NCBI GenBank assembly: GCA_003162245.1 | Contig: PMMM01000039.1 | Span: 14,592 to 75,659 of the forward strand | Direction of reading: 5' to 3' | Origin: Phycisphaerales bacterium | GTDB lineage: Bacteria; Planctomycetota; Phycisphaerae; UBA1845; Fen-1342 | DNA: 61,068 nucleotides | Shown here: positions 36,508-40,351 of the stretch, piece after piece | How the letters are laid out: the number at the start of each line of letters is the position of its first letter | Numbering within the stretch: the stretch's first letter is position 1 | Made by a program: the position numbers and the translations under genes | Notes under the pieces: generated by a model | What the model was told of the DNA's origin: nothing | Seen by the model: only the letters and a program-made list of their open reading frames with translations | Database searches by the model: none

Positions 36508-36581
36508 GCCGGTGTAGCTCAGTTGGATAGAGCGCTTGACTGTGGATCAAGAGGTCCCCGGTTCGACCCCGGGCGCCGGCA
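36508..36581 (+). tRNA. tRNA-His (anticodon GTG), lacking encoded G-1 and C73
   Basis: The acceptor GCCGGTG pairs with CGCCGGC. The D-stem is GCTC/GAGC, the anticodon stem CTTGA/TCAAG encloses CTGTGGA with GTG, and the T-arm is CCCGG/CCGGG. The base before position 1 is C and the discriminator is A, so the G-1:C73 pair usual for bacterial tRNA-His is not encoded. The gene overlaps the 3' end of the membrane-protein gene on the other strand, and hisS lies 2.3 kb away. Confidence 0.92.
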
Positions 36582-38810
36582 ATCGAGTCGTAGCAGTCGC
36601 ATGACGGGGGTCGCCAGCACGAACGCCAACACGCCCGCCGCGTACCACGGCCAACGCGTCGCCGGTGCGTATGTGAAGCGAATCTCATGCCGGCCCGCGG
36701 GCACCTGCACAGCGGCAAAGCCCGGCGTGACCGGGAACACGGTCGCGGGCACGCCGTCCACCGTGCCGCGCAGACCCGGGTGGTAGCCCGCCCGCCGAAC
36801 CACCGCCGCGGGACGCGCGAGTTCCGCCGCGCACGACCACGAATCGGCCTCCTGCGTCAACGTGCCCGCCGACGCACTTAGCCCCGCGGGCGCAACCAGC
36901 ACGGAATTCGGATCGCTGTCGTCAAACCTCGCCACCGGCACGTCCGCCGGCCCACGCCCGCCGATCAGCAGCGCCGGATACTCCCGGCGGACCGGCAGCG
37001 TGCTCTTCAGCCACGCGTTCCCCACGTTGTACACCGTCCGCTTGGTGCAGCGGATCCCATACGGCACATCGACCACGCCGAAGTACGATGCCTCCGGCAC
37101 CTCGTAGACACGGTACCGCCCGAACTCCGCGCGAAGCTGGGCAAACGCCGGCGGCGCGCGGTTCTGCTCGAACACGAGATACCGCACCCCGAAGATGCGG
37201 CAGTGCAACGGGTCGTCCGGGTTGAACCACACCTGTATGTCGCCGGCGTACGTGATCGCGATCCACAGGAACCCGAGCGTGTCGATGCCGTCGAGCAGGC
37301 AGAACGCCGTCAGCGGAATCCCGCCCACGCGTAGGTACTCCTTCTCCCGGCCGGGAATGCCCACGTACACGCGGCCGCCCTTCAGCGCGTGCAGTTCCGC
37401 CAGCAGCGGTTGCAGGTCCGCGTCCGCGCGGACGCCGACCAGCGCGTCCTGCTTCCACTTCTTGCTTTGCAGGAGATACGCCGCCCGCTCGTTCACTGCG
37501 GGTGCCAGCAGCAGACCGAGCACGGCCCCCGCCGCCGCCATGCGCAGCCAGCGCTGCGGCGTCGCGATGCACTGCATCACAAACGCCAGCCCGCAGCCCG
37601 CCAGCGGAATCGCAAAAAGATGCACGCCGCCGATGAAGCGGTGCAGCGGCGCGTCGCGCGCCAACGGCAGCAAGTCGATCAGCCGCCCCCACGTCGGCCG
37701 GCCGAAGTACAGCAGCAGCCATGCTATGCACAGGCCGCCCAGCAGGCGCAGCGGCGTGTCGCCGCGCCGCGCGGCATAGAGCAGCCCCAGCGCCGCGAGA
37801 ATCGTCACGACCGGCACGCGGCCGTTGTCGAACAGCCGCCCCGCGAGCAAGTGCCCCAGCACGAGCTTCCCATCGGACAGGTGCCCCAGCACAGCCTTCG
37901 CGCCGAGCGAGTCCATCTTCTCCTGCTTCTCCCAAACGCTGTGGTTGGCGAACTCAGCGTCCTGGAGTGCGGGCACGATGAAGCACGAGCCGATGAGGAA
38001 CGTCGCAACCGCCAGGAGCGCCACGCGACCGGCGCGGTGCAGCCGCCGGGGCCCGGGCACGATGAACGCCAGCGTCGACAGCGCCATCATGTACCCGTAC
38101 ACAAGCTGCGAAGCGAACGTCGCCGCAATGAGCAGCGCCGCCCGACCCAGCCCACGCCCCGTCGCCACAGCCCGGTACGCGCTTGCAAACGCCAGCGGCG
38201 CCAGCACCGACGCGAAAAGCTGCGCGTACAGCCCGCTGCCGCCCCACAGGTACGATTCGAAGCCGAGCCCGTACAGGTACGGCGTCGACAGCAGCGGCGC
38301 GATGAGGGCCGAGCAACCCGCCGCCAGCGGCCGCAAACCCAGCCGTCGCAGCGAGCCGTAAATCGCCAGCGGAAACACCGCCAGCAGCACCCCGAACACG
38401 ATGCGGTACGTCGTGGCCAGCGGAATGAGCCGCCCGACAACCGCGTCCACCGCGACGAGAGACAGGTGCGGCAAGAACTGGTAATGCCGCAGCAGCGGAA
38501 AACCGAGGGCGACGTCCGGATACCAGAAGTCGATCGGCGACTCGCCGCGCGCCAGCGCCTCCTTCATGCGCTGTGCGATGGCTACATGGTAGGCCGAGTC
38601 GTTCAGATCCGGGCAATTAATGACCAGTTCGGGCACCGCCCCCGCCGCAACCGTGAGCGCCACGAGCAGCGCGACGCCCAGGCCCAGCCAGCGCTCGCCG
38701 GGCGATCCGTCGCCGCTAAGCGAGAACGTGTCGGACGCGTCGGCGTCGCTCGCCGCTAGTGGCGCGGTCCGCTTCGGGGACGTGCCCGCTTTTTCAGCCG
38801 GAGCAGCCAT
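36519..38810 (-). CDS. Polytopic membrane protein (YfhO-like), C-terminus antisense to tRNA-His
   Basis: A 763-aa inner-membrane protein with about ten or more helices, a LNDSAYHVAIAQRMKEALARGESP loop after the first, and large periplasmic segments. The general layout (N-terminal multi-helix core, C-terminal soluble region ending in one helix, ATRWPWYAAGVLAFVLATPVM) resembles YfhO and glycosyltransferase-C-like proteins, so a role in surface polysaccharide or lipid-linked sugar transfer is possible but not shown. The last ~20 residues (after LLRLDC) are read from the antisense strand of tRNA-His, and the stop lies inside the tRNA gene. The start ATG 38810 is divergent from hisS. Confidence 0.75.
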   Translation of the reverse strand: MAAPAEKAGTSPKRTAPLAASDADASDTFSLSGDGSPGERWLGLGVALLVALTVAAGAVPELVINCPDLNDSAYHVAIAQRMKEALARGESPIDFWYPDVALGFPLLRHYQFLPHLSLVAVDAVVGRLIPLATTYRIVFGVLLAVFPLAIYGSLRRLGLRPLAAGCSALIAPLLSTPYLYGLGFESYLWGGSGLYAQLFASVLAPLAFASAYRAVATGRGLGRAALLIAATFASQLVYGYMMALSTLAFIVPGPRRLHRAGRVALLAVATFLIGSCFIVPALQDAEFANHSVWEKQEKMDSLGAKAVLGHLSDGKLVLGHLLAGRLFDNGRVPVVTILAALGLLYAARRGDTPLRLLGGLCIAWLLLYFGRPTWGRLIDLLPLARDAPLHRFIGGVHLFAIPLAGCGLAFVMQCIATPQRWLRMAAAGAVLGLLLAPAVNERAAYLLQSKKWKQDALVGVRADADLQPLLAELHALKGGRVYVGIPGREKEYLRVGGIPLTAFCLLDGIDTLGFLWIAITYAGDIQVWFNPDDPLHCRIFGVRYLVFEQNRAPPAFAQLRAEFGRYRVYEVPEASYFGVVDVPYGIRCTKRTVYNVGNAWLKSTLPVRREYPALLIGGRGPADVPVARFDDSDPNSVLVAPAGLSASAGTLTQEADSWSCAAELARPAAVVRRAGYHPGLRGTVDGVPATVFPVTPGFAAVQVPAGRHEIRFTYAPATRWPWYAAGVLAFVLATPVMRLLRLDCRRPGSNRGPLDPQSSALSN

Positions 38811-38911
38811 ACGCGGAAGATTACAGCAACCCCGTCAGGGGGCCAACTTGCCTGCCGACGGGCCTTGTGGTACTTGATCGGCTCCGGACGCTTCTTCTGG
38901 AGGTGACGATC

Positions 38912-40351
38912 TTGGCCGGTACCGTCGAACCACGTTTGCTACGGGGTCTGCGGGATTACTTCGCCGCCGACATGCACGCCCGGCAGTGGATCATCGACAC
39001 GATCCGCGGGGTGTACGAACGCTACGGGTACGTGCCGCTTGGCACGCCGGCGCTGGAGTACCTCGACATCCTGCGGGGTACCGCCGGCGAGGAGAGCGAA
39101 AAGCAGCTCTTCGAGGTCAAAGGCCCCGACGAGGAGCGGCTCGGGCTGCGCTTCGACCAGACGGTGCCGCTGGCCCGCGTTGTCGCGCAGTATCCCGACC
39201 TGCCGCGGCCGTTTCGCCGCTACCAGGTCTCACCGGCGTGGCGCTGCGACAACCCCTACGAGAAGCGCGGCCGCTTCCGCGAGTTCATCCAGTTCGACAT
39301 CGACGCGGTCGGCGTCGAGTCCGCGGTCGCCGACGTCGAGATGATCACGGCCATGTGCGACACGATGCAGGCGCTGAACGTCGGCCGCTTCCGCGTCCGC
39401 GTCTCGAGCCGCCGCGTGCTGAATCTCCTGCTCACGTACGCCGGCATCGCCCACGATCGGGCCCATGACGTATTCCGCGTCCTCGACAAACTCGACAAGC
39501 TTGGACACGAGAAGGTCCGCCTGGAACTGACCATCGGCTACAAGGACGAATCGGGCAGCCCGATCCCGGGCCTGGGGTTTTCCAGCGCGCAGGTCGATCG
39601 AATTGACCAGTTCCTCGCCCTCCGCGCGGCGAGCCGCGAGGAGGCGCTCGCACAGGTGCGCGACCTGTTCAAGGAAGTGGAGGGCGCCGCGGCCGAAATC
39701 GAGCTGCTCGCCCGTATGTCGCAGCAACTCCACACTTTGGGCTACGGCGACGATGTCGTGGCGTACGACCTGACCATCGCCCGCGGCCTCGACTACTACA
39801 CCGGCACCGTGTTCGAGACGCTGCTGCTCGATCTGCCGGACTTCGGCTCGGTCTGCGGCGGCGGGCGCTATGACGACCTCGTCATGCGGTTCCTCGGCGA
39901 GCGCGTGCCGGCGGTCGGCACGTCGGTTGGGGTGGATCGGCTGCTCGTCGCACTGGAGCAGCTCGGCCGGCTGCCGTCGCGGAAATGCACCGCGCAGGTC
40001 CTCGTCACCGTCTTCGACGACGTGCCGATTGACGAGTATCTCGCGATGGCCTACGAGCTCCGCCGCGCCGGCGTCCCCACCGAGTTCTACCTCGGCACCG
40101 AACGCCGCTTCGGCAAGCAGGTCCGCTACGGCGACCACTACGGCGTCCCGGTGCTCGTCGTCTGCGGCGCGGACGAGCGTGCCCGCGGCGAAGTGCAGCT
40201 CAAAGACATGTCCGTCGGCCGCAAACGCACCGCCCAAGTCGCTGACCGCAGCCAGTGGAAGTCTGAGCGCCCCGGCCAGTTCAACGTGCCGCGCGCCGAG
40301 CTTGTAGCGGCCATTCAGAAGCTTCTGGCGGAGATTGCGGCAGGGGGCTGA
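38912..40351 (+). CDS. hisS: Histidyl-tRNA synthetase
   Basis: A class II synthetase charging tRNA-His. TTG 38912 is chosen because GGAGGTGA sits 5 nt upstream, giving 479 aa; the frame is open back to 38759 without a ribosome site. Seen are LRFDQTVPLARVVAQ, motif 2 AWRCDNPYEKRGRFREFIQFDID at about 109-131, the HisA motif ARGLDYYTG, GGGRYDDL, and a C-terminal anticodon-binding domain. Motif 2 follows the eukaryote-like pattern (R-x-D-N-P-x-x-x-R-G-R-x-R-E-F) rather than the usual bacterial R-H-E-R-P-Q-x-G-R-x-R-Q-F. This fits the atypical tRNA-His nearby. The next gene starts 1 bp after its stop. Confidence 0.93.
   Translation: MAGTVEPRLLRGLRDYFAADMHARQWIIDTIRGVYERYGYVPLGTPALEYLDILRGTAGEESEKQLFEVKGPDEERLGLRFDQTVPLARVVAQYPDLPRPFRRYQVSPAWRCDNPYEKRGRFREFIQFDIDAVGVESAVADVEMITAMCDTMQALNVGRFRVRVSSRRVLNLLLTYAGIAHDRAHDVFRVLDKLDKLGHEKVRLELTIGYKDESGSPIPGLGFSSAQVDRIDQFLALRAASREEALAQVRDLFKEVEGAAAEIELLARMSQQLHTLGYGDDVVAYDLTIARGLDYYTGTVFETLLLDLPDFGSVCGGGRYDDLVMRFLGERVPAVGTSVGVDRLLVALEQLGRLPSRKCTAQVLVTVFDDVPIDEYLAMAYELRRAGVPTEFYLGTERRFGKQVRYGDHYGVPVLVVCGADERARGEVQLKDMSVGRKRTAQVADRSQWKSERPGQFNVPRAELVAAIQKLLAEIAAGG

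Follow-up and report, generated by a model that had tools for sequence, protein, structure and literature searches.

Core tRNA identity rules are usually thought to be nearly frozen, and the extra G carried by tRNA-His is near-universal. For an A73 system that lacks G-1, a 2023 review of tRNA identity mentions no bacteria besides alphaproteobacteria (PMC9976931). This RRCH system (Caulobacter, Rhizobiales, Rhodobacteraceae) is attributed to Ardell and Andersson (2006) and Yuan et al. (2011), as cited in PMC9976931 and PMC3937112. In Caulobacter, charging relies on A73, U72 and the anticodon, without G-1 (reviewed in PMC9976931), and the alphaproteobacterial HisRS uses the G1:U72 pair (PMC7590224; PMC9976931). 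The histidine switch is considered likely to have arisen once in bacteria, in alphaproteobacteria, by way of a eukaryotic HisRS (PMC3937112). Among eukaryotes, Trypanosoma brucei and Acanthamoeba have a tRNA-His that lacks G-1 and a HisRS that charges it independently of G-1 (PMC9976931). Archaeal-type identities have been described for other tRNAs, tRNA-Tyr and tRNA-Trp, in CPR bacteria (PMC5370408). No planctomycete case of an A73 system without G-1 was found in the literature searched, whose coverage did not extend to subscription papers.

The tRNA-His gene and the HisRS of the window

The window (the whole stretch of DNA analysed, 61,068 nucleotides) comes from the MAG of a Phycisphaerales bacterium (G000; 264 contigs, 4.76 Mb, 96.8% complete). 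Its relevant features are the following:

36507, + strand: position -1 of tRNA-His, a C (sequence; the C73-type planctomycete genes read have G in 54/54)
36508..36581, + strand: tRNA-His(GUG) gene (ARAGORN; Rfam RF00005, 68.7 bits; sequence reading)
36542..36544, + strand: anticodon GTG of tRNA-His (ARAGORN)
36581, + strand: discriminator A73 of tRNA-His (sequence; 212/244 sampled planctomycetes have C73)
36519..38810, - strand: 763-aa ORF between tRNA-His and hisS, without a Pfam match
38759..40351, + strand: hisS ORF (TIGR00442, 353 bits; PF13393; PF03129); conserved protein from about 38915, start codon uncertain
39242..39286, + strand: HisRS motif 2, RCDNPYEKRGRFREF; two residues inserted at the motif 2 hairpin tip (alignment; structure model)

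An earlier note on this DNA had read the base at -1 as C and the discriminator as A, and had claimed that the encoded G-1:C73 identity pair was lost. ARAGORN and Rfam both detect the tRNA gene, the sequence confirms the two readings, and the loss is supported: the canonical combination of an encoded G-1 with C73 is absent from the gene. The acceptor stem reads GCCGGTG/CGCCGGC, with a G1:C72 pair, and CCA is not encoded. A73 and the absence of a genome-encoded G-1 are features of the alphaproteobacterial type; G1:U72, which also belongs to that type, is replaced by G1:C72 in the window clade.

Exactly one of the 46 Rfam tRNA matches in the window genome, all but one of which are also read by ARAGORN, is a tRNA-His; no second, canonical tRNA-His was found there, and a single HisRS-family match was obtained. 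A search of the same genome for Thg1 (PF04446), which supplies G-1 in the eukaryotic system, detected no Thg1-like protein, while the Methanosarcina control was recovered. Of 34 genomes searched, mostly A73 ones, 33 gave no Thg1 match. The one Thg1-family match (L236; G049:C828:14769-15116) comes from a planctomycete MAG that is A73 and 7% contaminated, and may be either a host gene or a contaminant.

The hisS gene, which begins 2.3 kb downstream of the tRNA-His gene, encodes a full HisRS according to TIGR00442 and PF13393, and the protein contains the RGLDYYTG and motif 3 segments. Its distance from the tRNA and its unusual motif 2, also pointed out in the earlier note, were both verified. 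The Gly-for-Gln substitution of the alphaproteobacterial motif 2 (PGPGR) is lacking, as the window clade has YEKRGR. In the structure model, strands 100-113 and 118-132 are formed, and confidence is low at the hairpin tip of motif 2. Close HisRS relatives in named genomes belong to Phycisphaerae, which places the window in Planctomycetota.

Among the closest described systems, the alphaproteobacterial RRCH system shares A73, the absence of an encoded G-1, no need for Thg1 and a divergent HisRS of the same clade. The window differs, however, in phylum, in having C72 instead of U72, and in a motif 2 of the form RCDNPYEKRGR instead of RNEKPGPGR; the planctomycete case differs also in the location of tRNA-His beside hisS and in a distribution that is patchy down to the genus level. 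The window pair belongs to the A73 HisRS clade but lacks the U72 and PGPGR features of the alphaproteobacterial system. With the eukaryotic cytosolic system, made of HisRS, A73 tRNA-His and a G-1 added by Thg1, the window has in common A73 and the length and form of the motif 2 loop, but the descent of its HisRS is not eukaryotic, and Thg1 was not detected. The tRNA-His of Trypanosoma brucei and Acanthamoeba likewise has neither an encoded nor an added G-1, although those systems are eukaryotic. Finally, the tRNA-Tyr and tRNA-Trp case of CPR bacteria is comparable as a synthetase transferred with a foreign tRNA identity rule, but it involves other amino acids and other synthetases.

Distribution of A73 tRNA-His and ancestry of the cognate HisRS

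A draw of 244 planctomycete genomes, mostly MAGs, was examined; Planctomycetota is the only phylum that was sampled evenly. C73 tRNA-His was found in 212 of the 244 and the A73 pattern in six, one of them doubtful, while no genome had both patterns. The A73 genomes are the window genome, three genomes of family f22 and one of family f50 (G080), whose family mate G216 is C73. The doubtful genome, G227, was rejected from the count: the 3' strand of its acceptor is mismatched, and it has G at -1. Among 81 relatives of the window genome, A73 and C73 coexist within its own family (f1) and also within f71 and f72 of the order.

Position -1 follows the same division. In C73 planctomycetes, G-1 is encoded in all 54 genes whose flanks were read; in contrast, the base is unconserved in 28 A73 genomes counted without duplicates and without G227 (C in 11, T in 11, G in 5 and A in 1). 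The constraint on -1 is therefore relaxed exactly where C73 has been lost, which argues for an identity change and not for one odd gene.

The synthetase changes together with the tRNA. Identity to the window HisRS ranges from 43 to 95% in A73 genomes and is near 30% in C73 relatives of the order. In eight of eight independent pairs on the rpoB tree, tRNA and HisRS types change jointly (sign test, p=0.008; some of the C73-type HisRS labels were assigned by identity alone and not by tree placement). An example is provided by two congeners, G289 (A73) and G301 (C73), whose rpoB sequences are 88% identical and whose HisRSs are 31% identical.

Glycine in motif 2, at the position that has been reported as diagnostic for A73, was considered as a sole marker and rejected. 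Three genomes combine a Gly-motif-2 HisRS with a G-1:C73 tRNA-His: G019 (L074 with L252), G013 (L049 with L253) and G030 (L053 with L256).

In the HisRS tree, every A73-associated HisRS sampled, whether planctomycete or alphaproteobacterial (the latter taken from plasmid records), falls in one clade (support 100/99), and the HisRSs of C73 genomes stay outside it. The RRCH HisRSs are thus in the same clade as that of the window, and remain so in a tree built without the motif 2 columns. This clade consists of two subclades, one of the window type (100/100) and one of the alpha type (100/99). The latter contains the alphaproteobacteria, which group with G080 and G077 (97/94), as well as family f22 and a group II of the order. 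An A73 clade restricted to planctomycetes is rejected (p-AU 0.0003), and the HisRS of G080 is 60% identical to that of Rhodobacter. The HisRS of G077 (L047; motif RRDKPGLGRFRQF) belongs to the A73 clade; its MAG yielded no tRNA-His, and an A73 tRNA-His without G-1 is predicted.

The number of tRNA-type changes depends on the tree. On the HisRS tree there is one, with or without the motif 2 columns; on the rpoB tree, whose support is partly weak, there are at least nine, all forced by starred branches, and an rpoB tree of the order plus two class outgroups has seven. Both are single-gene trees. One HisRS origin against many changes on the organism tree points to horizontal transfer. The earlier note had coupled the loss of the identity pair to a divergent HisRS related to the alphaproteobacterial case, which the single clade bears out, and had left open whether the change was independent or shared. 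As judged from the trees, HisRS ancestry is shared, with probable horizontal spread both within Planctomycetota and between that phylum and Alphaproteobacteria.

The clade of the window has undergone a further change. Its eight genomes have C72 together with a motif 2 loop that is two residues longer than in all other A73 HisRSs read, and among A73 HisRSs the insertion is found in this clade only. Almost all A73 planctomycetes outside the clade have U72, and the Sinorhizobium tRNA-His, read directly from the genes, has T at -1, G1:U72 and A73. C72 and the insertion are not strictly coupled, as G263 has C72 alone. In class II synthetases the motif 2 loop points towards the acceptor end, and the longer loop may compensate for the loss of U72.

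Explanations for the A73 pair

We consider it very probable that the window carries a divergent, Caulobacter-like histidine identity pair, acquired horizontally, that displaced the resident G-1:C73 pair. RNase P would be expected to leave a tRNA-His that starts at G1, without G-1, and the HisRS would be expected to recognise its tRNA not by G-1:C73 but by A73, the GUG anticodon and the upper end of the acceptor stem. The window lineage would have gained the foreign HisRS horizontally, most likely with a linked tRNA gene, and the resident pair would have been lost. Such replacement has recurred in Planctomycetota, and the window clade has changed further, from U72 to C72 and by the addition of two residues to the motif 2 loop.

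The earlier note had called this hisS eukaryote-like. The description holds for the motif 2 loop, RCDNPYEKRGR in the window and RRDNPAMTRGR in human, and does not hold for descent. An independent origin, in which a eukaryotic HisRS was acquired and the lineage's own tRNA-His then lost G-1 and C73, would fit a motif 2 of human length and RxDNPxxxRGR form, and also A73, which is the eukaryotic discriminator. We nevertheless find it very unlikely: the window HisRS sits within the A73 clade of bacteria (100/99), a clade of the window group with human HisRS, the sole eukaryote in the tree and a long branch, is rejected (p-AU 7e-5), and the nearest relatives without the insertion (RADKPDRGR) are already A73. 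Given this rejection, the likeness of the loop to the human one is best read as an apparent convergence. An unlikely possibility is that the direction was the reverse, A73 being ancestral in the order and the C73/G-1 pair being regained repeatedly by transfer. Parsimony counts are blind to gain versus loss, and A73 is common in f1, f71 and f72. However, the order's C73 HisRSs fall largely into family groups, as vertical inheritance predicts, and these sit within a broader C73 clade of Phycisphaerae. Among A73 HisRSs, members of different families are joined (G263 of f1 with G307 of f71; G305 of f72 with G289 of f71); furthermore, all other Phycisphaerae of the phylum draw are C73. The grouping of C73 HisRSs by family suggests C73 as the resident state.

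The identity rule would be less changed if G-1 were added after transcription by some enzyme not recognisable as Thg1, or if RNase P retained whatever base lies at -1. Five of the 28 A73 genomes do encode G at -1, and the Thg1-family match mentioned above is in an A73 MAG. This explanation is nonetheless quite unlikely given the lack of conservation at -1, the failure to find Thg1 in the other genomes searched and the charging of tRNA-His without G-1 by alphaproteobacterial relatives (PMC9976931). As for bin contamination or a tRNA pseudogene, the window genome is indeed a MAG in many contigs, but an artefact is hardly credible: the tRNA-His scores 68.7 bits and is the only one in the genome, and the same pair recurs in seven further genomes of the family, whose HisRSs are 73-95% identical. 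A second MAG of the window genus and seven other genera of the family likewise combine an A73 tRNA-His with a HisRS from this subclade, as a check of relatives proposed in the earlier note revealed. With this recurrence, the A73 pair of the window is not a chance or assembly accident.

A virus as carrier of the pair was also considered and rejected. No A73 tRNA-His pattern was found in viral contigs, HisRS matches in viral contigs have alphaproteobacterial or other bacterial motif 2 forms, and none of the phage records covers 80% of the HisRS protein.

Under the preferred explanation, acquisition of a Caulobacter-like pair by horizontal transfer, the histidine switch is now found in a second phylum, where it is repeated, even between congeners, and where tRNA and enzyme are often adjacent. 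Switches at the congener level would provide natural before/after pairs in which survival of an identity replacement can be tested. The tRNA-His trait, which has been used as a phylogenetic synapomorphy, would be transferable, and Planctomycetota become a new candidate source for the alphaproteobacterial HisRS. A broader speculation, which we advance tentatively, is that Planctomycetota or unsampled bacteria are the A73 reservoir and the source of that HisRS, that the pair is a self-sufficient exchangeable unit able to overwrite a core identity rule, and that the window clade represents a third recognition mode (C72 plus an extended, convergently eukaryote-like loop). The series of HisRS/tRNA combinations, U72 with a short loop and C72 with a long loop, might be of use as orthogonal pairs.

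Linkage of tRNA-His and hisS

In 15 of 17 window-type genomes, hisS is preceded on its own strand by the tRNA-His gene, at a distance of 50-225 bp in 11 and at 2.3-2.4 kb in four, the window among them. The exceptions are G259, where the two genes are 27 kb apart, and G265, where they are split over contigs. In G080, of the alpha-type subclade, they are 151 bp apart; ARAGORN served as a check. Such proximity makes joint transfer of the pair simple, and a recipient would need both halves, since either the tRNA or the HisRS alone should not work. Co-transfer is not general, however, as group II (G280, G284, G302, G308, G311 and G316) and family f22 show no linkage; in several genomes the two genes are on different contigs. 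No such linkage was seen among the C73 relatives listed in both the tRNA-His and the HisRS match lists.

The unrelated 763-aa ORF that separates the two genes in the window runs antisense, at its 3' end, through most of the tRNA-His gene before reaching its stop codon. In the congener G244 (L161), the C-terminal end of the ORF is identical to that of the window (...CRRPGSNRGPLDPQSSALSN). The ORF is probably a later insertion; where the pair is 50-225 bp apart, there is no space for it.

A variant acceptor stem was observed in G310 (L247), whose A73 tRNA-His has A1:U72 instead of G1:U72 and is located near a contig end; hisS would be expected at that end.
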